From Labia minor (Eukaryota; Arthropoda; Insecta; Dermaptera; Spongiphoridae): a stretch of DNA of 64,000 nucleotides. Position 1 is the first letter of the stretch; every line of letters begins with the position of its first letter. The stretch lies in NCBI GenBank assembly GCA_963082975.1, contig OY720346.1, forward strand, positions 40,761,787 to 40,825,786, given 5' to 3'. Below the pieces are notes generated by a model, which worked only from the letters and a program-made list of their open reading frames with translations, had not been told where the DNA came from and ran no database searches. Shown one piece after another: positions 88 through 58,197 of the stretch. The translations under genes were made by a program, and so were the position numbers.

Positions 88-711
88 ACCGGCCGACGAT
101 AGTAAGGGAGGTATTGTTTTCACACCAAATTTAACATATGGAGATTTTTACATATCTCCACGAATCATGCATTTTCTTTACAGAAATAAGTATTTTTAGC
201 ATGATGTCTGTCCGTCCGTCCGTCCGTCCGTATAGATGTGTACAGCCTGAACGGCTTAACCGATTTTGATGAAATTTGGTATATTTACTTAATGCATCAG
301 TGGGATGAATTAACCGACATTTGGTGCAAATCCGGAAACCGGAAGTGGTAGTATTAGCGATCGACGATAGGAAGGGAAGGGTTATTTTCACACCAAATTT
401 CACATGAAGAGATTTTTTTATATATCATCACGAATCATGCACTTTGCATTGGTTTTATCCTCGAGAAAAATTATCTTTATTAGTTTTTCTTAATTTAAAA
501 TTATATGACGTCATCCAGCCATTCATTCACGTCACAGCCTGGTCTTACATATATATTCTAAATAAAATAAAATTAAAAATATTTATGTTCTATCCATATC
601 TGTTTTTATTACATTAATAGATATATTAAAATTATTTGAAATTGTTTCTCTAGCTGGAAATTAATTTACTTCAAACCGTCGGTCGGTTCGGACCTGGCCA
701 CAGGTCAACTT
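88..711 (+). mobile_element. Helentron-like element, family A, copy A1
   Basis: Non-autonomous repeat present seven times in the window, whole or in part. The 5' end carries a variant of ACCGACCGACG and the 3' end its complement CGTCGGTCGGT. That arm is followed three bases later by a perfect hairpin (stem GACCTG, loop GCCA) and the end CAACTT. A GTCC microsatellite at about 207-231 is followed by a block resembling ACCGATTTTGATGAAATTTGGT. The flanks are T-rich on the left and ATTT on the right with no clear target duplication, as expected of Helentron/HINE elements. It encodes no protein. Family identity is seen directly; assignment to Helentrons rests on architecture and is inferred. Confidence 0.8.
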
Positions 712-1215
712 ATTTATTTAAGGGTTGCATGAGCCACACAGCAAGCGGGTATTCAAAATGATTTTGCCTACGAAAAATAACTATCGCCCCCAAAAGCGTA
801 TAGTCAAATCGTCACTCACTCACTCGCCAGCCCCGCCGGGCTCATTGGGTTAAATTCGGTTTTATACATGGCGACTCTTTTTTTCAGTGGGTCTTTCAAA
901 AAAACAAAATTCTCCTGTAAATAAAGAGTAATTTGATTTTTATATGTTTTAAAAAAATGTTAATTGAATATATATATATTATTTCATTCTTTTAAATTTA
1001 ATTAAATATTGAATTAAATTGAATTAAATTAAATTAAATTATTTGATTATTTTTTAAATTATTTAAATTATTTTAAAATTATTTACTAATTTAATTATCA
1101 AAAATTAAAATGTTTTTCGCGATCAAAATTTTTATGAATATTGATTTTTTGCGGCCAGCCTAAAGTTAATCCTTGTTTGTTTGGCCCAAGTGTACCTATG
1201 AGTTTGACACCCCTG
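712..1215. other. Unassigned stretch ending in one hAT terminus
   Basis: Positions 720-860 are richer in G+C and low-copy here, but no coding frame is recognised. The segment ends at 1215 with a typical hAT right terminus (TTTGACACCCCTG, the complement of CAGGGGTGTCAAA). The matching left end was not found with confidence. A weak candidate, CAGTGGGTCTTTCAAA at 885, lacks a matching 8-bp target duplication. Confidence 0.4.
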
Positions 1216-2551
1216 TTTTAAGTAATTGCTATTTTTTTCTATTTTAATAATCGAAACAATTTATATTTTATTCTATTTTAATCTATAATATCTTAGATAT
1301 TACAGTATTACTAACGATATTCATGCCACAATAAATTTATTATATAAATATATTTTTTTATATATAAAAATAATATATCATGATCATTTTATATAGGCAT
1401 ACATACTATTATTACATGTGCCTTAATTCAGGAATATATTAAATATGTAATTTTCATCTTATTTTAATTTTTAGTTCATTAATTATCTTTTTTAATTTTA
1501 TCATCAATTTATGATAAAAATGAAATTAAAATTTTGTTTATTTTGTTTTAATTCAAATTTTTTATTGTTTGTTTTCTTAAGATAAATTTATTTTATAAAA
1601 AGAAACATATAATATATAGATAAATTATAGAATTTTATTAAATATATACGATTAATATTAAATAACTCCATGGGTTATTTATTTAATTTTTTTCTTGTTT
1701 AAAAATAAAAATAATCTACCCTTAAAACCAATTCACATTCCAATTGTGTTATTTATTATATTTTCGAGCCAAGTATTTTTTAATTAAATCATCTTCATTT
1801 GACATTCTTAAAAAAAATGTTTTTTTCTCATCTTTAATCTTGCTTATATTTTTAAAATTAATATTCTAAGGATGTGAATGTGGGTATGTGAAAAAGAAAA
1901 AAAAAGAAAGAAGAGGGATCTGGTGTAGGGATAAAAAAAATGTTTTTTTTTCTTTTTAATAGAAAAAAATCATGGTATACGAGAGTCCATTTCAGTTGCG
2001 AGTTATGAAGAGATAAATAAGAACGTTATAATAGACATTCAAATGGTTGATGAAAGTTTGGGTCGGGTGAGAGGGGATTGGGAGGAATGGAATGAATGCT
2101 TGGATAAAGGATGAAGCTCAGTTAAATATGTACGCCACCAAAATAATGATGAGAATGAGTATATATTATTTTATTATTTTATTTTTTTTTTTTTACTTTT
2201 ATTTTAATTCCATCGCCCATTCCTATATATTTCATTTTAGGGTAAATGGTTTCTATTTATAATCCGCTTGAGAGATGAATTAAAAATAATTTCTTAATGC
2301 CAGATTAAATGCCATACAATGAATACTCAATTTAAAAATCTAAGTTAAATGGTTAAATGTTTATCTCAATAGCTGTAAGATAGAGTTTATATACTAACAT
2401 GATATTATATTATTATCTATGATCCATTAAAAATTAAGCTGTTTTGTTGTAAATAGGATGTTCATTTTATCTCATTCATTCATTATTATCCGAAATCGAT
2501 ACACGAATATAAATAAATATTAAAATTATTTAGGAATATCTATATGGAAGT
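1216..2551. other. AT-rich spacer
   Basis: Mostly A/T homopolymer-rich sequence. The part from about 1870 to 2130 is less repetitive and purine-rich. I see no coding frame, RNA gene or recognisable repeat. Confidence 0.5.
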
Positions 2552-3129
2552 AGAAGATGTAGTAGCTTACCTAGGGGGGTGCGGTGGGTACGGTCCGCAC
2601 CGGGCGGCATTTATCTTGGGGCGGCATTTTTTATATTTAGTTATTGTTGTAAAAAGCAACTTATTCATTTCATATTTATTTTATTTCTTTCTTGAATAAT
2701 AAATGATTATTATGATTATTATAAGTTTACTATTTGATTTATATAAATTATGATCAACTATATGATTTCGAATATTATTCCTCGGTGTAGGTATATAAAT
2801 GCATTTTAGTGTAAATTTTGAATTCTAATTCCAAGAACAGGATAATAATTTTATTTTATTGTATTCATTAAAATCCGTTGAATTCGTAAACGCATCTTTA
2901 CGATTTTGTTCGGCAATTTTTCCTAACTAAAATTTTTTGATATCAGTTTATAAATGTCATTTCTTTTGAAAAGTTTATATGATTACTTTGAAGTGATATA
3001 CCAATATTTTTTTAAATCATAGATTTTTCTTTTGAAAAGCAGGGCCGGCGGAAAAAATATAAATATAAATTTTGAGAGCATTATACACGATTTTTCTAGT
3101 ATGAAAGCTAGAAGAGTAAATCTATATAT

Positions 3130-3293
3130 TTAATACGATAGTGTCCGTCTGTACGCAAAAAACTCCAGAGCCTAAACTACAAGGAGTAAGGTAACCAAAT
3201 TTTTCTGAGGTGAAGGGTACCTCAAATGATGAAAAATAAAAAAGAAATTAGAATCTTAGGTAACTGCTGAGCTGAGCTGCGGGTGGTCCATTT
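3130..3293 (+). repeat. Helentron-like core block, possible sixth family
   Basis: A short GTCCGTCTGT tract at about 3141-3152 is followed by a block that includes CTCCAGAGCC and AACCAAATTTTTCTGAGG. The order of microsatellite followed by a conserved block resembles families A to C, although the bases differ. The ends are not defined. Only one copy is in the window, so it is a tentative call. Confidence 0.35.
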
Positions 3294-6076: not shown

Positions 6077-7073
6077 AAACTTTTTAAAAACACGCTTTTA
6101 TTTAAATGCAGTAAAAACGAGAAAATAATTAAATTAAATAATAATACCACGATTTCCTTACAATTAATCATATCTAGAAAATGAAAGTGTGGACGCACTT
6201 GTTGGAAAATTTTACTTCAAATAGACATAGTTATCAAGAAAATGGAAAATGAAAAAAAAAAAACAGAAAGGTTTGTGCATATACAATGAAATGTCTTTCG
6301 TATTCGTTTTCTTTCCCTGCATGTTTGGCGCCTACGCTTTCATTTTTACCGACCGACGATAGTAAGGGAGGTATTGTTTTCACACCAAATTTCACATGTG
6401 GAGATTTTTACATATCTCCACGAATCATGCATTTTCTAAACAGAAAAAAGTATTTTTACCATGATGTCTGTCCGTCCGTCTGTCCGTCCGTATAGATGTG
6501 TACAGCCTGAACGGCTGAACGGATTTTGATAAAATTTGGTATATTTACTTAATGCATCAGTGGGATGAATTGATCAACTTTTGGTGCAATTCCGGAAACC
6601 GGAAGTGGTAGTATTAGCGATCGACGATAGGAAGGAAAGGGTTATTTTCACACCAAAGGAGATTTTTTTATATATCACCACGAATCATGTACTTTGTATT
6701 GGTTTTATCCTCGAGAAAAATCATATTTATTAGTTTTTTCTTGATTTAAAATTATATGACGTCATCCAGCCATTCATGACGTCACAGCCTGGTCTTGCAT
6801 ATATATTATAAATAAAATAAAATTAAAAATGTTTATATTTATTATTTATGTATCCATATCTGTTTTTTATTACATTAATAGATATATGAAAATTATTTGA
6901 AATTGTTTCTGTAGCTGGGAATTAATTTATTTCAAACCGTCGGTCGGTTCGGACCTGGCCACAGGTCAACTTATTTACATATGATTAATTGTAAGGAAAT
7001 CCTGGTGTATGTGGAGAATTTATTTTCACCTTTTTACTGCATTTAAATAAAAGCGTGTTTTTAAAAAGTTTTT
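6077..7073. repeat. Inverted-repeat (foldback) element interrupted by A2
   Basis: A left arm (6077-6173) and a right arm (6979-7073) are complementary over about 95 bp, most clearly in ATGATTAATTGTAAGGAAAT and ACTGCATTTAAATAAAAGCG. The right arm starts seven bases after family A copy A2. A2 therefore appears to have inserted into the spacer of a foldback element. The AAATAAAAGCGTGT motif recurs at 8041, suggesting a larger related family. Confidence 0.7.
6348..6972 (+). mobile_element. Helentron-like element, family A, copy A2
   Basis: Both ends are intact: ACCGACCGACG at the 5' end, CGTCGGTCGGT plus hairpin GACCTG-GCCA-CAGGTC at the 3' end. The GTCC/GTCT microsatellite is at about 6467-6491. 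It is close to copy A5 (46960-47568); both share the short deletion that turns the second CACACCAAA block directly into GGAGATTTT. This marks a recently active subfamily. Confidence 0.85.
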
Positions 7074-10275: not shown

Positions 10276-11335
10276 TTCTATTTACACTTAGAACATGCAG
10301 TCTTCAACAATTTACAATTATTATCTGCCTTTTTTAAGATTACAAATAAATATAAGATGTTTAAAAATAAGTTATTCGCTCTACAATAATAATAATTCAT
10401 TTTACTTGACTAGATTGTATGTTTAACTTTTTTGAAGTGAAACTTCTTTAGCGGCGTCCTGACATTTGGTTGAGAATGGAGAGTGAATTGAAAAATTGAA
10501 ATTTCGTAACGCAAGAGAGAAAGAAGATATAGGTATAACGAGTGAGAATGAGATAGCCTCTATCTGCGTCTCCGTTTTGTGCTGTCTTTCGTTCTAATCC
10601 CCACTCTAGGTCCAAAGTCCATGACGCGCATGCGCGCTAGTTAAGTCATATATAATTAGCTGGAGTGTCTCCACTCGACTATCTCGCAATTTGAATTGGA
10701 TTAAATAACATAATATATTATATTTAAATTAAATTTAATTAATTATAAATTATAAATAATAAATAATCTAATCTTATTATGCTAGCTAAAATTGTATATA
10801 TATATAACCATTGGTTCTCAAAAACCGCTCTAACGATTTTTTTCAAATTCACACTAGATATAGTATTTATAAAGAAAAATTGAGTTTTATTGATCACATC
10901 TCTTGAAACTTACAGCTTCATTATTAATTTCTTAATTGAAAATTATATATGGGTGTGACGTCATCAATTTTACTTCAATATTTTTTTTATATTTAAAATA
11001 TTTTAAAATAAAATAAATTTCGAAATAAAATTAAAAATATTTATTTTTAATAATATATATATATATATATATTTATTAATCTTAATTAATTAATTATTAA
11101 CAAAAAAATACGGTTGGTTGATTCCCGCTTTTTTTTAAATGAATTGTATTAACATTTTTTTATATATTTAAAATATTTTAAAATTCATTATTTAATTTCA
11201 AAATAAAATTAAAAATATTTATTTTTAATAAAATATATATATATATTTATTAATCACTCTCAAAAAAAACAAAAACAAAAACAAAAAAACATCTACGTCT
11301 GCTAAGAGATTAAAAAATGTCGTTTTCATCATCTA

Positions 11336-11426
11336 ACTATTATTAGTCTAATGGGTAGAGCGACTGTTTTGAATAGTCAACTTAGCAGGATCGAAACCGG
11401 CGGGAAAAAATTTTTTTTTTTTTTTT
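11336..11426 (+). pseudogene. tRNA-Gln(TTG)-like sequence, pseudo-tRNA or SINE head
   Basis: An A-box-like TAGTCTAATGGGTAGAGC (11344-11361) is followed by a 5-bp anticodon stem GACTG/TAGTC closing a 7-base loop TTTTGAA, which places anticodon TTG at 11369-11371. A B-box GATCGAAAC lies at 11389-11397. The stretch resembles eukaryotic tRNA-Gln. No acceptor stem pairs convincingly and the T stem has a mismatch, so it is unlikely to be functional. A T-run at about 11411-11426 could act as a pol III terminator. Confidence 0.55.
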
Positions 11427-11995
11427 ATCTATTATTTTATATTTATTTATTCATTGTTCTTTGATTAAATTTAATTTCTTTTATTTTATTTTATTAATTA
11501 AAATGATGCAACATTTAATAATTGTAATATTGTAATAAATTTTATTTTTTTTATTTTATTAATTACTTATTAGTCATTAACTAATAATTTAATATTAATT
11601 CAAATTTTTTTTTTATTTTTTATAAATTTTTATTATTTAATTTTGCTTTTGTTTATATATATATTTTAATTAACTAATCTTATCTTTTAATGACACTCAT
11701 ATTGAAATTTGACTCCCGCCTTTTTTCAAAAGATATTGTTTTAATATTTTTTTTATATTTAAAATATTTTAAAATTTTTTATTTAATTTCGAAATAAAAT
11801 TAAAAATATATATTTTAATAATATTTTATAATTATAAATTACGATATATATTTATCATTCTTCCAATAAAAAAAAAATATTCATGCACTTAGAAACATAT
11901 ATAATAATACATATTTATGTATTATTGAGGACCCCAAGTTCCATGCAATGATGCAACATTTAATAATTGTAATAAATAATTAAAGAATTGTATAT

Positions 11996-12340
11996 CAGCT
12001 CGGTGTCCCAAGTATTAATATTACCAGCCAAACCCAATATAATAATGAATTATTTTTTTTTAACTTAATTACCTAGCCGAGGCTCGGGGTCCCGGTGTGA
12101 TCTTAATATATTGTCAGAATTAGATAAATAATGTAGAGAGAAAAATTATTTAAAAATAGATATTTATTTAAATGAAATAAAATTATTTAATTTACAGAAT
12201 GAAAATGTCTATAATAATGTCTAAACATTTTTTCGAGCGACAGCTCGGTATCCCAGGTATTAATATTACCAGCCAAACCCAATAATAATGAATCATTTTT
12301 TTTAACTTAAGTACCGAGCCGAGGCTCGGGGTCCCGGTAC
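11996..12340 (+). repeat. Direct repeat of about 100 bp with GC-rich palindrome
   Basis: Units at 11996-12096 and 12241-12339 share most bases, from CAGCTCGGT through ACCAGCCAAACCCAAT to GAGGCTCGGGGTCCCGGT, and are separated by about 145 bp. In the second unit CCGAGCC-GA-GGCTCGG (12314-12329) is a perfect hairpin; in the first it is weakened. There is no TG...CA structure. Confidence 0.75.
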
Positions 12341-12693
12341 TAAATATTAAACCAGCGCATGTTTGGCTTTTTGTTGATGGCACCACGTTACGTGTTGGCG
12401 CGTGAGATTTGCAGTGTTAAAAAATTAATTCTGGTAATTTTAGCGAATCAATCAAGCTGAAATTCTATATATAGCAGTTTTATACAATTATTAATCATGT
12501 GAAAAATTATCAAACATATATCTTTATTTTTACGGTCACTTTAGAGGAAAAAAAATCAAAACGTTGTAGGTAATGACCCTCTTCCGGTTGACCTACATTT
12601 CTCAAAAGTTGATAGAAAACTATGAATTTTGAATAATGTCCATGTACCAAATTTCATCATTCTAGCTCAAACCGTTTTTGCGTAATCTTGCCT

Positions 12694-12780
<87 letters not shown>

Positions 12781-13161
12781 GACATTTTTCTCAACCTTAG
12801 TGAAAATGATTCAGGAACCTTCAAAACGTATAAAAACATCAAAATCTCAACATCGAAAATTTTCGTGATCGCAATACTATCTCTGGCGAGATAGTAAAAA
12901 TTGATATTTATATATATATATATATATATATCGTGAAATAATTAAAATTCTCAAGTCAAATATACAGCGTGCACGCATACCGACGCATGTAATTGTGTGT
13001 GTGAACATGGTCGGCGATTCACACGCCAACACATACAGTTATGTGCGTCGATGACCATTCACGTTATTTATCCGAATCTCAACATTACTTTAACACTACT
13101 AAATCAATTTAAAATTATTATTGCATTTAAAACTGCTTTTCTCTACTCCACAGATTTCACT

Positions 13162-13566
13162 ATGCCGAAAAAAAATAACGACCAAAATTTAGACGATATT
13201 ATTTATTTCATACACCGTTCACTACTGGTTTATAGCCACACAGGTGCTAATGCACTTGAACGAGGCGAAGATAAAATCCCTCTAATTCTCGGGGGAGATT
13301 TTAATGTAAATTTTGGATCTGATGATTCGTTGCCGTTGATCAACTTTCTTCAAGAAACATTTGGTCTGCTTATAAATAACGATCCCAAGGAATCAACAAC
13401 AAAATCTGGAACTACAATAGATGCTGTTTTTACACGTTATATAGAAAATATCGAATCACGAACATATATATCTTATTTTAGTTATCACAAGCCATTAATA
13501 TCAGTATTACCAATTGAAGCACCAACCGACAATAGTACAGGCAATGTAGATATGATGATAGAGTAG
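13162..13566 (+). CDS. Endonuclease domain (EEP family), Helentron-type
   Basis: Open frame of 134 residues from ATG at 13162; the frame stays open upstream to 12997, but the sequence there does not look coding. Visible motifs are GGDFNVNF (residues 44-51, catalytic D46 and N48), TTIDAVFTRY (84-93, D87) and SYFSYHKP (104-111, H109). These match the C-terminal half of exonuclease-endonuclease-phosphatase enzymes, which nick DNA. The usual Asp of an SDH motif is Tyr here (SYHKP), which I recall as typical of this invertebrate subgroup. The N-terminal half with the catalytic Glu is absent. It lies just before the 3' end of the Helentron. It could instead come from a LINE, but its motifs differ from the LINE endonuclease at 47.6 kb. 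Confidence 0.6.
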   Translation: MPKKNNDQNLDDIIYFIHRSLLVYSHTGANALERGEDKIPLILGGDFNVNFGSDDSLPLINFLQETFGLLINNDPKESTTKSGTTIDAVFTRYIENIESRTYISYFSYHKPLISVLPIEAPTDNSTGNVDMMIE

Positions 13567-16712: not shown

Positions 16713-19587
16713 TATTATTCAATTTCAAAAGTATAAACAAATATTTTAAACGAAGTAACTTAGGTATATTCTTTATTAATTATTATTTATTATTTAATAT
16801 TCAATTATTTCTATAATACCTATTGTTTAAAATGTCATGAGAAAATTATATTTTTTTTATTCATCAAAATGCTCATAGTTTCTATGTTCTGCAAACCTAG
16901 TTTGACACAGATTGTTCTGCAATTTGTCCAGATATGCATTAAAGACTGCTAGGAGTTGCTTAAGGGGACCAACGACTGAATGCTTTACCCTACATCTATT
17001 TTTACCTAAAAAGAGGATAATGTAATTGAAATTGGAGCGTTTGATGAATGGGACATATTGTTATGAATTCGACATTTTAAAGACTCATAAATTAATTGAG
17101 TTATTGGGAAAGTAGCCAAGGGCTGCTAAAAAGGGTTAAGAGTTATTTTTCCGAATGGAAGGAAGAATGTAAGATTCATTCTTCGGGATGGAGAGGACAG
17201 AGAGACATCATCTCTAAGTGAAACAACAGGCCAGGATCATATCTCGAGTCGAACATAAAGCTGCTACCGAGAGTAGATGTATCATTGAATTCCTGGAAGG
17301 AACCTCCCGGAGAATCAGCACTTGCCTCGCCTTTCTCTGAACTCTATACTAGTAAAAATTAACAGCTAAATGTCGACCCTTTACATAAAATCTATATTTA
17401 TATAAAATTTGATCTACCAATAATATTAAAATTTATTTTATGGTTAATTTCTAAGTTATAATTTCTTATTATACTTATTATAATTGTATTAATTTCTTTC
17501 ATTATTAAATATTAATTATAGTATAATTTAATATTTTATTTTAATCTGAATGAATTCAAATTAACCTCTTCCCTTATCAACCTTCGCTTGATTCACCTTC
17601 ATATTTTCTATTAATAATAAACAGAGTGCTACCAATTAAATTAAAGGTCAATTTTATTAATTTTAAACGCATGTTTTTAATAACCCAACCCATACTAAGC
17701 CTACAATATGCGACAATATATTGATTTGATCATAAAAATATTATAAATAAATAATAACTTTAATTATAAATTTTGTCTTATGGCTTAATAAATTTTGGAC
17801 AAAATAAAATTAAAAAAAAACAAAACAAAGACAATATTAATTTTATCCGTTGATTGTGAAGATTTTAGACTCAAGCAATTATTAATGAACCATCTCGCAG
17901 CCCCTAAACACCAAATCCATTGTGTCTAGTTCCGCTTGAGAATATCTATCTATTCCTGTATCTCTGTCCATTCATTGGATGCCAATACTGCTACAATACA
18001 CCCTAATTTGATGTTCCAAGATTTATTTGATCTGAAAACGGGTATTGTTCATCATCCCTCCCTCCCAATTGCACAAGAATGTTTTATTGAATTTGACTTG
18101 GGGATCATTCCAAATCCCCCACCACCATATATATCTCTCCCCTTTTTCTCTTCTCCTCTTTGTTCACCTAGAACATCTGACTGCCAATTACCAACATGCC
18201 CCCACCCACCACGTTGCACACAAAATTCAAATTTGTACTCTTTAAACTAATTTGCATACATTTCGGGCGTTTAATTGGAAAGCTATAGGGATTTGAATCA
18301 ATAGGTCGTTGGTTGGATGTAAAGAGAACGACGACGTTGCCCCTGGAAGGAGGCTCCAGCACATCCCTTGCCAGATGGGCTTTGTTCACCATCTCGCAAT
18401 GGAAATACACTCCCTATCCATAGAATATCTGCATTCGAAACATTCCAACCATTCAAATAACTCCAATATATCTATATATCTATATTTATATAATTTATTA
18501 ATTTGCTAAGTTTCATCTTTTTCTATTTCTAATAGCTTTCTAGTGATAGATAGTTCTAACAATCGAGCAAATAAAATTCTCTTCTTCAAAATGACATGAA
18601 ATATGATATTTTAATAACTAAAATATTTAACAAAAAATAAAAATACTTTTGCTTAACAATTAAACAACGATTAACTCATTATTTCAGAAATTGTTCTTGA
18701 AAACAATATACTTATTATTTTCTAGGATATTCAATATGTTATATATTTATTTATAATACTTTTTAAAACTAAATCTTCCATTTTGTTATTGAAAAAAAGA
18801 ATATTCTGTCCTCTATTTGCAAAAGTTAAACGGATGCCTTGTATTCAACCGATAACGCCAGATGGTCTTCCATCTTGTCTTTTTCTATATGAAAATAAAC
18901 AAAAAAAAAAATACCAACTTTATTTACATAATATCGGAATATTGTTTAGTTATTTATTATTTATTTATTTTTCTATTTTTATTATTAATTTGCATGATCC
19001 TTGTGAACATTAGACTTTAATTGCATTCGTGTAAATCGGATTCTGTGAAGCTTGCAAGATGGAAACGAAATGGAAATCCCCGGGTCTTGTTTATTTTCCA
19101 TTTTAACCCCCACCCCCCTCCCTCCCACCTCATTTCCCACAAATTCCCCTCTCACCTCCGCTAGAACACCACTCGACACTTTGTAATCTGTTGAATGTAA
19201 ATAAAACCGGAATCTTAATGAAAACCAAACTAAATAACCGGAAAAACAAAGCATTATAATTATATTTTTCAATAAAATGTATTTTATTAAATTAAAATAA
19301 ATAATATAATTTAAATTTATTTGGCAAATAATAATCGCTAAATTTTAAATTTATTGATCAATATGAAAATACAATACACTCAATTCAAATCTTTTTTAAT
19401 TAACATTTATCTTTAATTATATCATTATTTTTAATTATTAAACATATATTAATGTAACGCCCAAAATAATGAACATTCTAAGATAATCATGAATTTAAAG
19501 GGAGGGGGAAAGTTGGAAGACGTAAAACACAACATCTCTGAAAGGGTTGATTTGAAATGTGGATATTGTTTTACAAATAAAAAATAT
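16713..19587. other. Long spacer, mostly low-copy, no gene recognised
   Basis: Segments at 16870-17340, 17870-18460 and 18780-19240 are mixed-composition and unique in the window. Their short ORFs show no family motif, no coding-like continuity and no splice-linked partner. An arm-like AT segment at 17415-17515 resembles part of the palindrome at 22150-22580. Confidence 0.4.
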
Positions 19588-20095
19588 GAGCTGTGGCCAG
19601 GCACAGAACCGACCGACGATTTAAAGTAAATTAATTTCCAAATTCCTAAACATCGTATATTTAAAGTATCAAAAAAAAATATTTTTAAAACTTGAATTAA
19701 AATGACTATATTATATTACTTATCTTAGTTTTTATTTTTAGTTTAATTAATCAATTCTTTATCACTACTATATTTTAAGTGAAATATTTTCTGACAATGA
19801 ATATAAAATTAATACTTTGTAAACTACCACTTCTGGTTTCCGGATGTACACTAAAAGTTAATGAATTCATGCTACTGATGCATTAAATAAATATATCAAA
19901 TGTTATCAAAATCCGTTCAGCCTTTCAAGCAATACACGTCTATACGGACATACAATGGACAGACGGACGGACAGATATCATGCTAAAAATGCTTTTTTCT
20001 GTTAACAAAATGCATGATTTGTGGAAATATGTAAAAATCTACACATGTGAAATTGGGTGTTAAAACAATACCTTCCCTTCCTATCGACGGCCGGT
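19588..20095 (-). mobile_element. Helentron-like element, family A, copy A3 (diverged)
   Basis: Minus-strand copy. The 5' end lies at 20095 (complement ACCGGCCGTCGATAG) and the 3' end near 19588. The GTCC microsatellite is at about 19950-19975. The 3' hairpin stem is decayed and many substitutions separate it from A2 and A5, so it is an old insertion. Confidence 0.8.
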
Positions 20096-35117: not shown

Positions 35118-35741
35118 CTGGAGAGTCTCTACTCGACTATCTCGCAAATTTGAATTGGATTAATTAACATACATTATATTTAAAATAAAAATTTAATTAA
35201 TTATAAATTATAAATTAAAATTAATAAATAAATAATATTTATTAAACCAGTGCGTATTTGACTCTTTGTTGATGGCTCCACGTGCCACGTTGAAGTGTTA
35301 AAAAATTAATTCTGGTACTTTCAGCGATTCAATCAAGCTGAAATTCTATATATAGCAGTTTTATACAATTATTAATCATGTGAAAAATTATCAAACATAT
35401 CTTTATTTTTACGGTCAGTTTAGAGGAAACAATATAAATATAAAAAAATTTTATAAAATAACGTTTTTCTCATGGATTAAAAAGAATAAAATAATTTTTC
35501 TATAAGCCTGACAAAGTTTATGGATGAATTGCTTCATATTCAACTAAAAACATTGAACGCTTTTAGTTTTCATTTGCTTTCTATTTTATTTCTATGCAAT
35601 TAAATTCCTTTATAGGGCTATAATTTATATATATACTTTCCTACCACACTAAAATGACTCAGGGATCTTCAAAATGGATAAAAACATCAAAATCTCGACA
35701 TCGAAATTCGTGATATCAATACTATCTCTGGCGAGATAGTA
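35118..35741 (-). mobile_element. Family B, copy B4
   Basis: Both ends are recognisable (GCGAGATAGT arm at 35731-35740, hairpin end at 35118). The hairpin stem is decayed. The microsatellite and core block are replaced by about 200 bp of unrelated AT-rich sequence (35430-35640). Confidence 0.85.
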
Positions 35742-37582: not shown

Positions 37583-37598
37583 CTTTAAATTAAATTAG

Positions 37599-38173
37599 CT
37601 GGAGTGTCTCCACTCGACTATCTGGCAAATTTGAATTAGATTAAATAACATAATATATTATATTTAAATTAAATTTAATTAATTATAAATTATAAATAAT
37701 AAATATTAAACCAGCGCATGTTTGGCTTTTTATTGATGGCACCACGTAACGTGTTGAAGCGTGAGATTTGCAATGTTAAAAAATTAATTCTGGTAATTTC
37801 AGCGAATCAATCAAGCTGAAAAATTCTATATATAGCAGTTTTATACAATTATTAATCATGTGAAAAATTACCAAACATATATCTTTATTTTTACGGTCAC
37901 TTTAGAGGAAAAAAACTCAAAACGTTGTAAGTAATGACCCTCTTCCGGTTGAGCTACATTTCTCAAAAGTTGATAGAAAACTATGAATTTTGAATAATGC
38001 CCATGTACCAAATTTCATCATTCTAGCTCAATCTTGGTTACATACATACACACACACAGACATTTTTCTCAACCTTAGTGAAAATGATTCAGGAACCTTC
38101 AAAACGTATAAAAACATCAAAATCTCAACATCGAAAATTTTCGTGATCGCAATACTATCTCTTACGAGATAGT
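37599..38173 (-). mobile_element. Family B, copy B5
   Basis: Nearly full-length copy with both arms and the GAGTG-GAGA-CACTC hairpin at the left edge. The CA microsatellite is short (about 38045-38058). It starts 16 bases beyond the hAT MITE and shares private variants with copy B7. Confidence 0.9.
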
Positions 38174-39177
38174 AAAAAAACAAATTTATACCTTTAAAAT
38201 ATTTATTATTATTATTATTATTATTATTAAAAAATGCTATTATATTTTATGCTTATCTCATTATTTTTAATTAACTTAAAATTAATCTCTAAATGACTTG
38301 TTCAAATTTATTATAAACAATTTTTTTTCTTTTTATATCTATTATATACAATATATATATATATATAATTATATATATAAATTGTCAACCATTAATCCCA
38401 GTAACTCATTATCTTTTTTTGTTTCCCTCTCTCTCTCTCTCTCTCTTTATCTTCATTCACTTCATATTATTATTAAATTTTGATATGATGATCAAATCAG
38501 TTTATATTTAGCGGAAAGTGAATCGATTCTGGATTAATTTCCTAATGGCAACAAACTCTCCCCTCCCCCTTCACCTTCTGATGCCACCCTCCTACTTGCA
38601 TTATCTTAACGTAATCGGCACCACGGTGCTCATCTGTCGCCTTGTAAAGGAAACATCAAATGTCACTCCAAAGGTAAATATTATTGTACTTAAGCTTATT
38701 ATCGCATTCTCCCGTGCCCAACTACCCCTTGAACGAATTTCACTCATTCCCTTATTGACGAAATCTCTATTTTCATTTGAACAAAAATTTAAGAAGATTA
38801 ATTAAATGAATTATAAGATAAGGAGAAGTGATGGACAAAGGACAATCTCTTTAGTAGCATTAATGACCTTGTTATATTCTCCTAATAATAGGATAATACT
38901 TAAAATTAATATTTCTAGGCCGCAACAACCGCGTTCACTCATCCTTTCTGATCCAGTTATTAAATATAATGGAATTTATTTATCCTTATTTTTGTATTTA
39001 TTTGTTTAATAAAATTCATATTAAGATATTATATATTAATGATCGATTTTAACCTGAATTTTAATTCAAATTCTTGGGTGGCAGTTTCAAACTCACACAA
39101 AGTTTCATTATCTTGCATTGTTCAAATAATATTGTAAAACGGTCTTATGAAAGGTTCAATTTTTTGGAAATAAAAAT
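38174..39177. other. Spacer
   Basis: (ATT)n at 38203-38228 and (CT)n near 38425-38446. Positions 38515-38960 are low-copy; a 95-codon frame there has no recognised motif. It contains a GTAAAT splice-donor-like sequence, too little to call an exon. Confidence 0.4.
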
Positions 39178-39217
39178 CGGGAGTGTCCTCCCCTAGACTT
39201 TCCCGCATATAAATAGG
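39178..39217 (-). mobile_element. Family C 3' end fragment, C2
   Basis: On the minus strand reads TATGCGGGAAAGTCTAGGGG and then the hairpin GGGAG-GACA-CTCCC, identical to the 3' end of C1. The rest of the element is absent. It is 68 bp from the 3' end of family A copy A4, in the same orientation. Confidence 0.8.
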
Positions 39218-39284
39218 TAATTGGGTTATTATTATGATGTTTTAACAACAATAAAAATAAACAAACTAATTAATTCAAATTACA

Positions 39285-39848
39285 AAGTTGACCTGTGGCC
39301 AGGTCCGAACCGACCGACGGTTTGAAGTAAATTAATTTCCAGCTACAGAAACAATTTCAAATAATTTTAATATATCTATTAATGTAATAAAAAACAGATA
39401 TGGATACATAAATAATAAATATAAACATTTTTAATTTTATTTTATTTATAATATATATGCAAGACCAGGCTGTGACGTCATGAATGGTTGGATGACGTCA
39501 TATAATTTTAAATTAAGAAAAAATTAATAAAGATGATTTTTCTCGAGGATAAAACCAATACAAAGTGCATGTGGTGATATGTAAAAAATCTCCTCATGTT
39601 AAATTTGGTGTGAAAATAACCCTTCCCTTCCTATCGTCAATCGCTAATACTACCACTTCCGGTTTCCGGATTTGCACCAAAAGTTGATCAATTCATACCA
39701 CTGATGCATTAAGTAAATATACCAAATTTCATCGAAATCCGTTCAGCTGTTTAGGCTGTACACATCTATACGGACGGACGGACGGACGGACAGACATCAT
39801 GCTAAAAATATTTTTTTCTGTTAAGAAAATGCACTATCGTCGGTCGGT
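39285..39848 (-). mobile_element. Family A, copy A4
   Basis: Complete at both ends with a perfect GACCTG-GCCA-CAGGTC hairpin. It has an internal deletion of about 80-100 bp just after the 5' arm. The GTCC microsatellite is at about 39771-39792. Confidence 0.88.
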
Positions 39849-39891
39849 AAAAACATAAAAAATTGAAAAAACGTTATTTTTTTAAAAAAAT

Positions 39892-40100
39892 CTGGAGTGT
39901 CTTCACTCGACTATTAAATTTGAATTGGATTAATTAACTTATATTATATTCAAATTTAATTTAATTAATTAAATTATGAATTTAAAATTAATAAATAATA
40001 TTTATTAAACCAGCGCGTGTTTGCCACTTTGTTGATGGCTCTACGTCACGTGTTGGCGCGTGATAAACGGATTAAAACATTAATTCCGGTACTTTCAGCC
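39892..40100 (-). mobile_element. Family B, copy B6, truncated
   Basis: Begins with the 3' hairpin end (loop AAGA) and breaks off within GGTACTTTCAGC, where hAT-derived sequence starts. Confidence 0.85.
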
Positions 40101-40194
40101 AAATCAATATAGCGGGTCTACCCAAAACCGAAAAACATGGCGTGGGGTCTACGACACAAAAATGTTTGGGAACCTATGCTTTAAATTAAATTAG
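40101..40194. repeat. Duplicated hAT end plus flank
   Basis: Matches 37504-37598 essentially base for base: the last 79 bases of the hAT MITE, its target duplication CTTTAAAT and eight further bases. It is attached to the 3' end of copy B7 exactly as at B5. Confidence 0.9.
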
Positions 40195-40550
40195 CTGGAG
40201 TGTCTCCACTCGACTATTTCGCAAATTTGAATTAGATTAAATAACATTTATTATATTTAAATTAAATTATAAATTAAAATTAATAAATCATATTTATTAA
40301 ACCAGCGCATGTTTGGCTCTTTGTTGATGGCACCACGTAACGTGTTGAAGCGTGAGATTTGCAGTGTTAAAAAATTAATTCTGGTAATTTCAGCGAATCA
40401 ATCAAACTGAAATTCTATATATAGCAGTTTTATACAATTTTTAATCATGTGAAAAACTATCAAACATATATCTTTATTTTTACAGTCACTTTAGAGGAAA
40501 TTGCTTAATCTTGTCTACATACACACACACAAACATTTTTCTCAACCTCA
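40195..40550 (-). mobile_element. Family B, copy B7, 5'-truncated
   Basis: Shares with B5 the GAATTAGATT variant and ACGTAACGTGTTGAAGCGTG. It lacks the segment between the CTTTAGAGG block and the short CA tract, and ends inside the CTCAACCT block. Read with the hAT-derived flank, it looks like a copy of B5 or its parent. Confidence 0.88.
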
Positions 40551-44508: not shown

Positions 44509-44862
44509 CAGGGGTGACCAAACTTTTTATATACCCTTCAGCTTGATTGAATCGGTGAAAGTACAGGAATTAATTTTTTAAATGTTTTAACACAATGAAT
44601 ACCAATCACGTGCCAGCACGTGACCTGGTGACATCAACAAAGAGCCAAACGCGCTGGTTTAATAAATATTTTTTATTAATTTTAATTTATAATTTATAAT
44701 TAATTAAATTTAAATTAAATAATCCAATTCAAATTTGCGAGATAGTCGAATGAAGATATTCCAGATTTTTTATTTAAAACATTAATTTTTACATTTTTTT
44801 TTTTTTTTAATTAATGACAATGGTCCAAAATTGGGGCACTCCCTGAAGTTTGCGCACCTCTG
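44509..44862. mobile_element. hAT MITE containing a family B fragment
   Basis: Ends CAGGGGTGACCAAACTT and GTTTGCGCACCTCTG are hAT-type inverted repeats. The target duplication is ATATATAC (44501-44508) versus ATGTATAC (44863-44870). Family B sequence fills 44537-44764, so the hAT was hit by B and little original interior remains. Confidence 0.85.
44537..44764 (+). mobile_element. Family B, copy B8, 5'-truncated, nested in hAT
   Basis: Starts at TTCAGCTTGATTGAATCG and ends with the GCGAGATAGT arm. The hairpin GAATG-AAGA-TATTC differs in bases from consensus but still pairs (one G-T), a possible compensatory change. Confidence 0.85.
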
Positions 44863-46959: not shown

Positions 46960-47568
46960 ACCGACCGACGATAGTAAGGGAGGTATTGTTTTCACACCAA
47001 ATTTCACATGTGGAGATTTTTACATATCTCCACGAATCATGCATTTTCTAAACAGAAAAAAGTATTTTTAGCATGATGTCTGTCAGTCCGTCTGTCCGTC
47101 CGTCCGTATAGATGTGTACAGCCTGAACGGCTCAACCGATTTTGATGAAATTTGGTATATTTACTTAATGCATCAGTGGGATGAATTGATCAACTTTTGG
47201 TGCAATTCCGGAAACCGGAAGTGGTAGTATTTGCGATCGACATAGGAAGGAAAGGGTTATTTTCACACCAAAGGAGATTTTTTTATATATCACCACGAAT
47301 CATGCACTTTGTATTGGTTTTATCCTCGAGAAAAATCATATTTATTAGTTTTTTCTTGATTTAAAATTATATGACGTCATCCAGCCATTCATGACGTCAC
47401 ATTATAAATAAAATAAAATTAAAAATGTTTATATTTATTATTTATGTATCCATATCTGTTTTTTATTACATTAATAGATATATGAAAATTATTTGAAATT
47501 GTTTCTGTAGCTGGAAATTAATTTATTTCAAACCGTCGGTCGGTTCGGACCTGGCCACAGGTCAACTT
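46960..47568 (+). mobile_element. Family A, copy A5, nested in LINE
   Basis: Intact ends, GTCC microsatellite at about 47090-47106, perfect GACCTG-GCCA-CAGGTC hairpin. It is very similar to A2. It splits the LINE between endonuclease and linker and lies opposite to the LINE's direction. A short stretch with GCCTGGTCTTGC is missing relative to A2. Confidence 0.9.
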
Positions 47569-47579
47569 ATTTGTTATAT

Positions 47580-49363: not shown

Positions 49364-49993
49364 ATTATCTCGCCAGAGATAGTATTGCGATCACGAAAAT
49401 TTTCGATGTCGAGATTTTGTTGTTTTTATACGTTTTGAAGGTCCCTGAGTAATTTTCACTAAGGTTAAGAAAAATGTCTGTCTGTCTCTCTCCTTCTCTC
49501 TCTCTCTCTGTGTGTGTGTGGGGGGGGGGTGTAGACAGGATTACTCAAAAACGGTTTGAGCTAGAATAATGAAATTTGGTACATGGGCATTATTCAAAAT
49601 TCGTAGTTTTCTATTAACTTTTGAGAAATGTACCTTAATCGGAAGAGCTACCAAGTTTTCATTTTTTTCCACTAGTGACCGTAAAAATAAAGATATATGT
49701 TTGATAGTTTTTCCACATGATTAAAAATTGTATAAAACTGCTATTTATAGAATTTCAGCTTGATTGAATCGCTGAAAGTACAGGAATAAATTTTTTAAAT
49801 TTTTAACATATTGACTGCAAATCACGCGCCAGCACGTGACATGGTACCATCAACAAAGAGCCAAACACGCGCTTGTTTTTAATATATATTTATTAATTTT
49901 AATTTATAATTTTAATTAAATTTAATTTAAATATAATATAAGTTAATTAATCCAATTCAAATTTACGAGATAGTCAAGTGGAGGCACACAGGA
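49364..49993 (+). mobile_element. Family B, copy B9
   Basis: Nearly complete. The 5' arm ATTATCTCGCCAG precedes AGATAGTATTGCGATC. The microsatellite is mixed (GTCT, CT, GT, G-run, 49479-49530), followed by CTCAAAAACGGTTTGAGCTA and GAAATTTGGTAC. The 3' hairpin has decayed. Confidence 0.9.
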
Positions 49994-51957
49994 GATTTTT
50001 TTAAAGTTATTCGGTAGTTGACTTCATTATATGTTAGAGGCTTTGTTAAATTATTTTTAAACTTAAAAACAATTTATTTGATACTTTTCTTAATTCAAAG
50101 TAAATAAATAAATGTTTTTTTTTAATTATAAATACTTAAATGGGATGAGCTATTATTCTAAAGAGTATCCCTAAAAGGATTTATTCTACTTTCAATAAAA
50201 ATTCAATATATGAATGTGGGATTGGCAATTTTAATAAGAATTTGAATTTCCTTTTCCTTACCTAATCATGTATATGTAATGTATATTACCTTGGGGGTAA
50301 GAACGGTACCAAAAAAAAAACAACTTAAATGTTGCTATAGAGAATGGAAAAGAGGGAGGAAGAATACTATACAGTATACATTTAAAATGAATTTTAATTA
50401 ATATTTCCATTGTCTATTATCATGATTGGGGGAACCGAAATAAAAACAAACAAATAAACTAAAATAATATTTATATGTAAATTGTTGTTTTTCCAATCTC
50501 TGAACGGTTCAGTCCTTTTCGAAGAGATTCTTCTCCAATTTTTTGGATGTTTTTTGGACTCGGCCCCTCGCATTGAATATTCCGCAGCATTCGCCTCATA
50601 TCTGAATTGTCGTGTTGCCCCGGGTTGAGATTGAGAGGGGTGGAGGATTGCACCAACCCTCCTACCTCACCCCCAAGGGGACTGACACAGATGTGATCTG
50701 AGCCAACGCCTCTCTTAGCAGTCGCATAAAATTAGAACTTTGACAAGCAGCTCTGTATTTTGGCGAATGTATGTGTGTGTGTGTGAATGTGTATGTATGT
50801 GTATGTATGTCGGTGCCTGTCTGCGTTGGGTGGTGTTTTTCGAGGGGTAACCAAGACGGCCGGGGTGAATATATAATCATTTTTATTATATGATAATTTT
50901 AAAATCTCGCCAGGTTGATCTATATTCTCATATCCGACATTCATTGTTAGTCATAAAAAAAAAGTCGGAATGGAAATAATTCTAACTAGATATTTGTAAT
51001 AGGGAAAGCTTCCCGGAGAAAATAACATACATTTACATTAATCTTCTTTTCTTATCTATTTGAATGCACCCTCCCCTTCCACCATCTCCACCATTTCTTT
51101 GGACTAATTTTTTTATTATTATTTTATAAGTTTAAATTTTAAAGTTAATCCGACTTAAATAACAAATTATAGGTGTAATATTAATCCCTGAAATTAAAGT
51201 AAAATTTATTTAAATTAAATCCTTCATGAGACAGCTAGAATAGTTTATATATAATACTCAAATAAATTTTCCATTTTTTCATTTAGTATGAAATTATTAA
51301 TTATTTAATTTTATCTTCAAAAACATTTTATTTAAAGTTATTAAACTTGGAAGATTCTAACTGATTTCTTTTCATTTACAATTTAAAAAATCGAAAACAA
51401 AATAGAAGAATTAATTTTGCAGAATTATTAATAATAACAAATTTTGAGAGACATGAAGCTTCATTTCGAATGAATCAAACGAAAGATTCGTAATTGACCA
51501 AGAGACAAACAAAACAACAAACCATAAACAAATATTTTACCTTAAAATACAATATATATATTTATATATAATCTAATATATATTTGGGATCTAATACATT
51601 TTTTTAATTTATGACTCTTAAAATTACTATTGAGATTAATAGTAGTAAAATTAACTTAATAAATGTTGCAAGTTATATCACTGTACGATTATTGATTTGC
51701 CAACAGACGAACACACCTAAAAATTAAAATTGGTACGCATTCTTTTTTCCTGATTATTTAGTGTTGAAAGTTATACAGTAAATAAATTATAAATGCATTA
51801 TAATTGAAGGAAATAGTCAAGTAGAAAGTGGAAAAAAAAAAACGTTTGAATAAGGGTATTGCAGTAGGAGGAGGAGATTGATTACTTTAAAGAAGACAAA
51901 ATAAATTTGGAAGAATAAATAAATTCTTGGTGAATAATTGAAAACGTCTTCTTTCTT
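49994..51957. other. Spacer with a GC-richer segment
   Basis: AT-rich except 50480-50870. That part is unique and GC-richer, and carries a GT-type microsatellite at 50765-50810. Minus-strand frames (HDNSDMRRMLRNIQCEGPSP; MRLLREALAQITSVSVPLG) have balanced composition but no recognised family. They could be real exons or chance. Confidence 0.35.
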
Positions 51958-51960
51958 TTT

Positions 51961-51992
51961 ACCGACCGACGATAGGAAGGGAAGGTATTGTT
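51961..51992 (+). mobile_element. Family A 5' terminus only, A7
   Basis: Only the first 32 bases of family A, starting ACCGACCGACGATAGGAAGG, are present, after a T-run. The rest is missing or replaced by unrelated sequence. Confidence 0.75.
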
Positions 51993-54770: not shown

Positions 54771-54774
54771 TTTT

Positions 54775-54937
54775 ACTTTCCCGCATACTTCGTATAAGGG
54801 AAGTATTGGAATCGTCAAAAATTTCGACTTCGAGATTTCGATAGATCTTGACGTTTTAGAACTCCCTGAGTCGGAAAATACCATTTTTGGAATTATGTCT
54901 GTGTGTGTGTATGTATGTATGTATGTATGTATGTATG

Positions 54938-54968
<31 letters not shown>

Positions 54969-55896
54969 TGTCTGTAAGCAAATTTACTCAAAAACTAATC
55001 AAGCTAGGACTTCGAAATTTGGTACACCGATATTATTCACAGTTTGTAGATTTCTATCAAAATTTCGTCAAAATCGGTTAACCGGAAGTGGTACTTTACC
55101 TACAATGGTTGCGTTTACCTTTCAAGTAAAGTACCAGTTTGCTTCGAGATATTTGCTTCATATTTTGTATATAGATTTAAAAATATGAAAAAAATTCAGA
55201 TACCAAATTTCATCATGATCTGACTACCGGAAGTGACATTTTACCTATACAAGTAGCGTTTCCTTTTTACCGACCGACGATAGTAAGAGAGGTATTGTTT
55301 TCACACCAAATTTCACCTGTTGATATTTTTAGGTACATATCTCCACCAATCATGCATTTTCTTAACAGAAAAAAGTATTTTTAGCATGATGTCTGTCCGT
55401 CCGTCCGCTGTGTGTCCGTAGTGATGTGTACAGCTTGAACGGCTCAACGGATTTTGATGAAATTTGGTATATTTACTTAATGCATCAGTATGATGAATTG
55501 ATCAACTTTTGGTGCAAATCCGGAAACCGGAAGTGCTAGTATTGCCGATCGAAGGGATGAAGTGAAGGGTTATTTTCATATCAAATTTCACGTGAAGGCA
55601 TATCTCCACGTGTTATGCACTTTGTATTGGTTTATCCTCGAGAAAAATCATCTTCATTAGTTTTTTCTTAATTTAAAATTATATGGAGTCACCCAGCACT
55701 TCATGACGTCACAGCCAGCCCTTATATATTATAAATAAAATAAAATTAAAAATATTTATATTATATCCATATCTGTTTTTTTTACATTTAAAATATCAGT
55801 TAACCGGAAGTAGCACTTTATTACATTCTAAATATTCATTCACAACTCTTTATACCTATTTATATGCGGGAAAGTCTAGGGGAGGACACTCCCGCT
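54775..55896 (+). mobile_element. Helentron-like element, family C, copy C1, containing A6
   Basis: The 5' arm ACTTTCCCGCATA (54775-54787) is complementary over 12 of 13 bases or better to TATGCGGGAAAGT (55863-55875). Four bases later is the perfect hairpin GGGAG-GACA-CTCCC (55880-55893). A (GTAT)n microsatellite lies at about 54907-54966, followed by CTCAAAAACTAATCAAGCTA and GAAATTTGGTACACC. Family A sequence starts abruptly at 55269 and returns to C-type sequence (GTTAACCGGAAGTAGCAC) near 55790. ORFs across the microsatellite are artefacts. Confidence 0.85.
55269..55785 (+). mobile_element. Family A, copy A6, 3'-truncated, inside C1
   Basis: Begins with an intact ACCGACCGACG arm and runs through the microsatellite and core block. 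It ends around CCATATCTGTTTTTTTTACA without the 3' arm or hairpin. Confidence 0.82.
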
Positions 55897-56479
55897 TATT
55901 TTTATAGTTTTTATGATGACTGTAAGTAACTCTCCTCAAAATATCTTGAGGTGATAGACATACAAATAAGCTTTTAATAATTTACTTCTCTCATGGCATT
56001 AAAATAATAATATTTTACAATATTTTATTTTTTTAATATATTGAATATTACATAAAAATTCTCTATTTAAGAGAAATATTTTTACTTTTTATTTTAATTT
56101 TATTATATGTCAACACCTAACACCTATCATAAAACAAACCATTAGCATTTTTGTTTTCATTTTACACAATATATTTAAATATCTACATATATATAGTTAT
56201 ATACATATATATTTAATTTAATCTAATATGAACTATTTTCAAAATGGGAATGATTAAAAAAAATATCATTTTGCAATAAACTGAGTAGTGAATAATTTAA
56301 GCTTTATGTTTTTTTCATTATCACACTTACAAACATGCAATAAGAAAAAATAATAAAATAAAAATTTATAATGTTTTTAGTAGGTGGTTAGACTCACCAA
56401 GCTATTACTACTTTTCTAAAATTTTCTATGATCATGAACTCCGTTAAGATATTAATATTTAGTGAGGTAAACCATTTTT
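55897..56479. other. AT-rich spacer
   Basis: Nothing recognised. Confidence 0.5.
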
Positions 56480-56789
56480 TAGGAATTGCATGACCTCTAT
56501 GCATCGCAAGAAATAGTTAGGGTTATAAAATCGAGAAGAATGCAATGCAGGTCACGTGGCTAGAATGGGATAGGAAAGAATGGCGAAAAATATATAGTAT
56601 TAGTTAGACCGATTGGGAAATGTCTGCTTGGAAGACTAAGGACGCGGTGGGCGAACAATGTAGGAAGGATCGTGAGAGAGATGGGAAAGGGTAGGAGTTG
56701 GATGGTTGTGGCTCACGATAGGAACCTTGGAGAAATGTGGTTGCCAAGAAGTTTCGAGTTCCGTAGAGACACAGACATAGATAGATAGT
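56480..56789 (+). pseudogene. RTE-like LINE 3' tail, copy L7
   Basis: 5'-truncated tail. It reads LHDLYASQEIVRVIKSRRMQ and, in other frames, GRLRTRW and GRSWMVVAHDRNLGE-like segments. It ends with AGACACAGACATAGATAGAT, the family signature. Several frame changes. Confidence 0.8.
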
Positions 56790-57644
56790 TAGAATTTTTA
56801 ATTAATTTTGCTTAATTAAATATATCTATATATTTTTATATATAAAATCCTTTAATTTTATAATATTCAAGTATATATATTTATATTTTTATATATATAC
56901 CGATTGTTTTATATATATGTATATACTGAAAATTTCTTAATATATTTTTATCTTCCTTTTTTTTATTTCTTCATTATATAACAAAATAAATTAAATTTTA
57001 ATTTTTTTTTTATATGTCGATCCAAATATTCAGTTTTTATTAAAAGAACGAGATTGTGGAATGTCAAGGTATGAGTTGGTTGGTTGTCAAGAGGGAAGCC
57101 ATACTTTCAATTTTCCACTAGATATAATGATATTAATGTCTACTTTGCCTATTATGCCCCCTCTCTATCAGCTCCCCCTGAACTGTCCGTAAACTTTCCC
57201 AAACCCTAAAAATGGTTGGATGCTTTGATCTCATCTCTTGTCTGCCAGTTGAAAAAGTTCAATTCGTTCATTGAACGGAGGGCAAACTAATTTGTTGGAT
57301 GATTTCAACAATGATTCATTATCCCCTGATGGAGAATTAACATCCTCCATTAACATGATTTAACCGTTTTTATTAAATTTTCAAAATAGTGAAATAAATT
57401 CAAACAAATTTTATTAAAAATTCTAAAACAAAATATTTTTGATTATTTTGAGATTTATCATAAAATTTTTATAATTTTAAAAAGTAAAATCAAAACTGCA
57501 AAAAAAAATGTTCAGGATAATGATGATAAAATCTATATTTAGAGGAAATTTCTTATAAATATATAAGAAAACAGTATCTTGTTAATCAGCGAATTTAGAA
57601 ATATTTAAAAACGATATAAAAATTTTATATAGAAATAAAAAAAT
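56790..57644. other. Spacer with low-copy segment
   Basis: Positions 57040-57370 are complex and unique in the window, without a frame of interest; candidate conserved noncoding DNA. The rest is AT-rich. Confidence 0.4.
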
Positions 57645-58197
57645 CTGGAATGTCTTCACTCGACTATATCGAAAATTTGAATTGGATTAATTAACATATA
57701 TTATATTTAAATTAAATTAAATTAATTAAATTATAAATTAAAATTAATAAATAATATTTATTAAACAAGCGCGCGTGTTTGGCTCTTTGTTGAGGACACC
57801 ACATCACGCGCTGGCGTGTGATTGGCAGTCAACGTGTTAAAAAATCTAAAAAATTAATTCCGGTACTTTCAGTGATTCAATCAAGCTGAAATTCTATATA
57901 TAGCAGTTTTATATAATTTTTAATCATGTGAAAAACTATCAAACATATATCTTTATTTTTACGGTTAACTTAGAGAAAATTGAAAACGTGGTAGGGGTAA
58001 TGACCCTCTTCCGGATTAGCTACGTTTCTCAAAATAGAAAACTACGAATTTTGAATAACGAAATTTCCTTATTTTAGCTTAATGCGTAATCTTGTCTACA
58101 TACACACATTTTTCTCAACCTTAGGGAAAATGACTCAAGAACCTTCAAAACGTATAAAAACATCAAAATCTCGACATCGAAAATTTTCGTTATAGTA
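57645..58197 (-). mobile_element. Family B, copy B10
   Basis: Both ends are present but worn: hairpin GAGTG-AAGA-CATTC (one G-T pair), right end truncated at TATAGTA. The CA microsatellite is reduced to CACACA. The copy retains CACGCGCTGGCGTGTGATTG, a near-palindromic segment common to B. Confidence 0.85.

Follow-up and report, generated by a model that had tools for sequence, protein, structure and literature searches.

Three abundant hairpin-ended repeat families of the dermapteran Labia minor: probable relatives of one Helentron-associated lineage

A stretch of 64,000 nucleotides from the genome of the dermapteran insect Labia minor (GenBank assembly GCA_963082975.1, contig OY720346.1, here C4:40761787-40825786; the genome has 604 Mb in 71 contigs), hereafter the window, carries many copies of three small repeat families, A, B and C. 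Each places a second, inverted arm shortly before a 3' hairpin whose loop has four bases beginning with G and ending with A (GNNA). A preliminary description of this locus had taken the three families for unrelated elements with Helentron-like ends and had suggested that the common loop may mark a feature recognized by the replication protein. The question raised by the locus is whether three independent families have arrived at one loop or one lineage has retained it. Our analysis indicates that A, B and C are very probably related non-autonomous Helentron families, that is Helentron-associated interspersed elements (HINEs) of the DINE-1 kind, on whose ends a Helentron-encoded Rep-helicase-endonuclease would act, and that their GNNA loops would be shared by descent. 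They would be new HINE families of a known kind; the shared end design itself is already established.

Ends and kinship of families A, B and C

The arm signal in the window lies far above that of shuffled sequence for A and B and is weak for C. With at most one mismatch the A arm has 11 matches (shuffle mean 0.07); the B arm has 15 (shuffle mean 1.02), two of which, at 17889 and 18388, are judged by context not to be B ends; and the C arm, with at most two mismatches, has four (shuffle mean 1.07; four are reached by 1 of 100 shuffles), three of them being C ends. A scan of the window for arm, inverted arm and hairpin together gave six hits against none in 40 simulated sequences; five belong to A, B or C, and the sixth (45646/44635) is built on a palindrome within a B copy. 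In element orientation the hairpin, with a stem of 5-6 bp, follows the 3' arm after 3 bases in A, 1 in B and 4 in C, and the arrangement is present as it had been described, with the hairpin 1-4 bases beyond the arm.

Within the window the loop is GCCA in four of the five A copies, the remaining copy folding best with a 6-nt loop, and GACA in both C copies, while the ten B ends have GAGA (four), AAGA (three), GAGA beside a mismatch (one), GAGG (one) and AGAG (one); for one of the AAGA ends, at 57672, the computed fold favoured a 3-bp GACA hairpin. Genome-wide patterns with a fixed stem, which are blind to copies with an altered stem, located the A hairpin at 17,723 places, the B hairpin at 21,268 (reversed control, 1) and the C hairpin at 2,915, together about 42,000 hairpin ends with an intact stem. 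Among the first 100 matches listed per family the commonest loop was GCCA for A (95), GAGA for B (95) and GACA for C (94), and any GNNA loop was present in 97, 96 and 98 of them, respectively. Near-consensus ends (few mismatches in arm and 5' stem) in the scanned loci had GCCA in 15 of 18 A ends, GAGA in 20 of 24 B ends and GACA in all four C ends, a filter that omits degraded ends such as those at 39910 and 57672 of the window, both AAGA. The prevailing loops previously given for each family, with AAGA in some B copies, are therefore borne out by the window folds and by these genome-wide matches alike.

The view of A, B and C as three unrelated families did not survive comparison of their left modules. 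These were aligned using one copy per family, with arms excluded and microsatellites removed, and the scores were 333 for A-B (shuffle maximum 290), 319 for A-C (253) and 570 for B-C (326), none of which was reached by any of 500 shuffles. One pattern taken from the core common to the three has 37,267 genome-wide matches (reversed control, 0), and GTATTG stands directly past the 5' inverted repeat in intact copies of all three families. The ends were likewise said to have no sequence in common, which is contradicted by the left modules and by the 3' tails past the arm in two of the three pairs: B and C have most letters in common there (score reached by 0 of 5,000 shuffles), and the tails of A and B (5 of 5,000) are in register at the loop, TG-GNNA-CA. 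Judged by these alignments, A, B and C are one related lineage, and consequently their three agreeing loops are not three independent observations.

The anatomy of the elements is that of HINEs. Subterminal inverted repeats (subTIRs) are present, the 5' arm near the end and the 3' arm internal; an inverted repeat partly complementary to the 5' subTIR has its first half within that subTIR; the left module holds a microsatellite, which is TATG in C, GTCY in A and TG in those B copies that retain one; and in all three families a stem-loop closely follows the 3' subTIR. The 5' inverted repeat is found in four of five B copies (ACTATCTC-GCCA-GAGATAGT, 8 bp in three of them) and, interrupted, in the one C copy (ACTTTCCC..GGGAAGT). 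A canonical Helitron, with 5'-TC, 3'-CTRR, A/T insertion and no inverted repeats at its ends, was considered and rejected, since the ends here read ACC/ACT.. and CTTATT or similar and carry subTIRs.

The elements have T runs at their insertion points. Empty sites were sought for 20 complete elements with a filter that demanded TT on the 5' side, and joined flanks found matches for three, of which one is clean, one is a diverged repeat that is not exactly readable (L024; loci of this genome outside the window are given as L numbers) and one is of low complexity (L048). The clean case is a C element inside a B element at L030, compared with uninterrupted B; it has 21 spanning matches, the best two of which, L042 and L043, are one place. 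Here insertion occurred into a T run without target-site modification, only the T (TT) itself being ambiguous, and at this one clean site there is no duplication longer than TT of the type left by terminal inverted repeat (TIR) transposons. The Helentron- or HINE-like nature of the ends is thus upheld by their anatomy, by this empty site and by an element with Rep, helicase and endonuclease parts that carries a B 3' end.

A candidate autonomous partner

The latter element was found at L067. The Rep family PF14214 has 104 matches genome-wide, and the L067 open frame of 2,181 aa unites a PIF1 helicase (1.9e-31), Helitron_like_N (1.3e-23) and Exo_endo_phos_2 (0.0013, below the Pfam cut-off), i.e., Rep, PIF1-type helicase and, by a sub-cut-off match, endonuclease in one protein, as is characteristic of Helentrons. 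Its C-terminus looks Ulp1-protease-like, a resemblance that Pfam did not report. The frame is followed, 1.25 kb downstream, by a B 3' end with 97.8% identity to the window over 46 bp. In a second copy, at L071, the frame end runs directly into 249 bp at 99.2% identity, which reach the same B 3' end; beyond it there is no further match. By its predicted protein and these flanks, the L067 element is of Helentron architecture with a B 3' terminus. The expectation of autonomous partners with matching ends has accordingly been answered in part, by a B 3' end in the two copies L067 and L071.

Two further frames, of 1,652 aa (L061/L062) and 2,039 aa (L063/L064), carry Rep and PIF1 helicase; no endonuclease match was present in the 1,625 and 1,971 aa scanned, respectively, and they are therefore read as canonical-Helitron-type proteins. 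From L065/L066 and L069 no usable end was obtained. L070, beyond a second endonuclease relative, runs by eye into an apparent retroelement. Upstream of the L067 Helentron, an A element with a lost 3' end is inserted in repeats (L073, C1:47871401-47873400); a similar uninterrupted repeat near this insertion has a T run as the target.

An endonuclease-like sequence is also found in the window, where the 206-aa frame listed in Table 1 is 37% identical, across 76 aa, to the endonuclease segment of the L067 (B-type) Helentron. It lies beside a B 5' end, an adjacency that does not by itself imply membership in B. A genome search with the L067 C-terminus gave at least 119 matches, of which more than 100 are weak and fall in the endonuclease part, many of them within 206-aa frames; this suggests that these frames belong to a repeat, present in many copies, that includes part of a Helentron-type endonuclease.

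If A, B and C are mobilized as HINEs, transposition would begin with a nick by the nuclease in a T run at the 5' subTIR; rolling-circle displacement or copying of one strand would follow and end at the 3' hairpin, and the copy would enter a further T run. Descent from a common 3' end would best explain the GNNA loops, perhaps with some help from the slightly greater stability of G..A-closed DNA loops, and selection on the loop may putatively contribute besides descent.

Several observations weigh against the assignment of A, B and C to one Helentron-mobilized lineage. The similarity of the A and C 3' tails, considered by themselves, is not significant (their score is reached by 448 of 5,000 shuffles), and the common part is only CTTATTT. 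In A, four of seven copies have a weak 5' inverted repeat (-1.4 to -1.7 kcal/mol) and three do not fold one, while one of five B copies has none. A clean empty site was obtained for only one of the 20 complete elements. L068, L072 and L073 did not extend to the 5' end of the L067 element, so that the match to B concerns its 3' end, and neither A nor C yielded a partner. Finally, an exact B 5' arm follows a T run (L061 1796) 3.3 kb upstream of the 1,652-aa Rep-helicase frame, whose scanned part has no endonuclease match. On the other side, 2 kb downstream of the L061 frame, a B 3' end forms part of a short, rearranged B copy that has an arm of its own (L062 1413-2060), and the B ends around this frame may have met there by chance or may delimit a larger element.

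The GNNA loop

The consensus loops are as they had been stated, yet they come from one lineage and other loops occur at several sites, and so the regularity does not amount to a rule: the families are not independent, the B hairpin has an alternative fold with an ACA triloop, the A2 subfamily of A folds best with a 6-nt loop, and no convincing fourth family was found in the window and other loci of this genome (343.7 kb, overlaps included). The shared loops are real, and it is more likely that they were inherited than that they are proof of a recognition signal. In the open-access literature searched, no report of a GNNA loop in Helentrons was found.

Chance or generic hairpin stability, with G..A among the favoured closing mismatches, might also have produced the loops; we regard this as possible but doubtful as an explanation, and it is compatible with descent in a HINE lineage. 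DNA parameters give 64 of the 256 loops tied for the lowest energy per stem, in the classes A..A, C..A, G..A and G..G, and stability alone does not pick G..A over the other three. Composition predicts GNNA at 4.7%, and other tetraloop hairpins in 210.5 kb have it in 5 of 36 orientations, three of these from one repeat, a figure that has been counted in favour of both chance and recognition.

That the Helentron Rep/helicase reads the loop as a recognition determinant, with selection keeping G..A while stems and arms drift, is an unlikely explanation, although several features speak for it. The GNNA loops prevail among the matches listed in spite of family-specific stems and arms, A and B align in register at the loop, and among five B copies the loop of the 5' inverted repeat is GCCA in three and GTAA in one. 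Three related families are, however, not three independent cases. Base changes in the 300 listed copies hit the loop ends nine times and the middle eight times (dead copies drift anyway). The A2 hairpin folds best with a 6-nt loop, a 3-bp CTG-GCCA-CAG being still possible there; the A2 3'-end pattern, which tests only the last letters of the arm, occurs at 1,209 places genome-wide, its stem differs from that of A, and the loop is CCTGGC in 60 of the first 100 matches listed. Two of the 18 A ends have a 7-nt loop, at different sites (GTCAACA with an intact stem, in L037 1906 (-) and L040 1899 (+)), and the alternative B fold, TGGAG-ACA-CTCCA, at about -2.9 against -3.6 kcal/mol, is only some 0.7 kcal/mol weaker. 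The loops of Drosophila DINE-1 are not known to be GNNA.

Mutants of Helraiser keep a role of the loop alive: a swapped stem with the loop kept left about 90% activity, and a loop change plus a closing-pair change behaved like deletion of the hairpin (PMC4778049). Helraiser's own loop is nevertheless ATT (PMC4778049). A loop-based terminator code of Helentron 3' ends, and in B also of the 5' inverted repeat, in which the G..A-closed tetraloop is read by the Rep-helicase while arms and stems drift, seems to us improbable, and the GNNA tetraloop rule is best kept as a hypothesis which is probably wrong but worth testing. That A, B and C are miniature inverted-repeat transposable elements of the TIR type with an incidental hairpin is extremely improbable: their short inverted arms and high copy number would fit, but the right arm is subterminal with the hairpin beyond it, the clean empty site has no duplication longer than TT (one of 2 bp, TT, being still possible), and a Rep-helicase element carries the B 3' end.

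Features of the window and known relatives

Table 1. Copies and parts of families A, B and C, and an endonuclease-like frame, in the window.
Feature	Position	Strand	Ends, hairpin and remarks
A, full length	88..713	+	5' arm ACCGGCCGACG; 3' arm 677-687; hairpin 691-706 GACCTG-GCCA-CAGGTC
A, full length	6348..6974	+	Hairpin 6952-6967, loop GCCA; GTCY microsatellite in left module
A, full length	46960..47570	+	Hairpin 47548-47563, loop GCCA
A, ~65 bp deleted past 5' arm	39283..39848	-	Hairpin 39290-39305, loop GCCA
A2 subfamily copy	19586..20095	-	5' arm ACCGGCCGTCG; best 3' fold CTGTG-CCTGGC-CACAG (6-nt loop)
A left part within C element (composite)	55264..55788	+	Without A 3' arm and hairpin
A-like 5' end only	51956..51992	+	Followed by non-A sequence
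B element	27511..28028	+	3' arm 27999-28008; loop of this copy computed as AGAGAC
B element	49364..49992	+	5' inverted repeat with GCCA loop; 3' hairpin degenerate (GAGG)
B element, interrupted ~10768-12344	10658..12895	-	5' inverted repeat ACTATCTC-GCCA-GAGATAGT; 3' hairpin 10663-10676, loop GAGA
B element	35113..35740	-	5' inverted repeat loop GCCA; 3' hairpin degenerate
B element	37594..38173	-	5' inverted repeat loop GTAA; 3' hairpin 37602-37615, loop GAGA
B element, 5' end degenerate	57640..58204	-	Loop region AAGA
B 3' part	40190..40500	-	Hairpin 40198-40211, loop GAGA
B 3' part	39884..40108	-	Loop AAGA
B 3' part	24455..24746	+	Hairpin 24729-24742, loop GAGA
B 3' part	44537..44765	+	Stem GAATG/TATTC (one paired double change to A-T), loop AAGA
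C element carrying A left part	54775..55898	+	5' inverted repeat ACTTTCCC../GGGAAGT; TATG microsatellite 54894-54976; 3' arm 55863-55875; hairpin 55880-55893 GGGAG-GACA-CTCCC
C 3' end only	39170..39219	-	Hairpin 39179-39192, loop GACA
Endonuclease-like 206-aa stop-to-stop frame	12946..13566	+	Exo_endo_phos_2, E 0.0021, below family cut-off

The C element at 54775-55898 contains the left part of an A element without the A 3' arm and hairpin. The same C-to-A junction exists at three other places (L024/L025, L030-L033 and L034/L035) with 93-97% identity over long pieces, indicating that the composite was copied as a unit; two of these three differ in the segment that separates the A part from the C 3' end. 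The arrangement would fit, without proving, a requirement that a composite lose its internal terminator before it can move. The sequence joined to the A-type 5' end at 51956-51992 resembles, by eye, the end of a LINE-type reading frame, and both capture and later insertion are possible at this junction.

As a possible fourth family we considered a repeat that starts with the hairpin CGAGC-NNNN-GCTCG, at 12234-12290 of the window, L062 711 and L048 6381 (-), with the loops GACA, GATA and GGTA. In two of these three places related sequence follows, ending near ..CCAGGTATTA..CAGCCAAACCC. It was rejected because its conserved part begins at the hairpin instead of ending there. Further coincidences in the arm and hairpin scan were mostly repeats of the interior of A. 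Besides A and B ends, four hairpins stand before a T-rich tail (L050, L051, L019 and 18860 of the window), with a short arm pair only in L019. At 7275-7610 a 111-aa frame matches the DUF4817 helix-turn-helix (2.5e-6) and is perhaps a DNA-transposon remnant. Patterns for A, for B and for a Drosophila-like 5' end found no match in IMG/VR. The core pattern common to A, B and C was found in one viral contig, in phage-like coding DNA, and in 11 prokaryote contigs; the former was taken as chance, as were the latter given the size of the collection.

The closest known systems are other HINEs and a canonical Helitron. DINE-1/INE-1 of Drosophila (Yang and Barbash, 2008; PMC2374699) has in common with the present families the subTIRs, the inverted repeat partly complementary to the 5' subTIR, a GTCY-rich microsatellite in the left block, the preference for insertion at TT and a stem-loop a few bases past the 3' subTIR; it differs in arm and stem sequences and in stem length (7-11 there, 5-6 bp here), and TG (B) or TATG (C) stands here in place of GTCY repeats. 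The HINEs and Helentrons of a mite and of insects (Thomas et al., 2014; PMC4067079) are likewise non-autonomous elements with the termini of a Rep/helicase/endonuclease element, flanked by T runs and without target-site modification, whereas here the partner is known by the B 3' end only. Cg_HINE of the Pacific oyster (PMC7492417) has similar parts, i.e., subTIRs of 11-12 bp, an inverted repeat of 7-12 bp, a microsatellite and a 3' palindrome, but carries satellite-like tandem arrays, none of which were seen among the A, B and C copies of the window. Helraiser/Helibat1 (PMC4778049) also uses a 3' hairpin as terminator with an important loop; in contrast to the families described here it is a canonical Helitron, with 5'-TC, CTRR-3', an AT target, no inverted repeats at its ends and the loop ATT.

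With these results three very abundant repeat families of a 604 Mb genome are placed in one HINE lineage, and the link of the B 3' end to a specific Helentron makes trans-mobilization and end recognition testable with defined ends. If the loop were the recognized part, as the Helraiser mutants hint for Helitrons, this would explain why arms and stems diverge freely. Under such a loop code a single enzyme could act on families whose arms differ, and compensatory substitutions would alter the stems of related families without disturbing the loop register.

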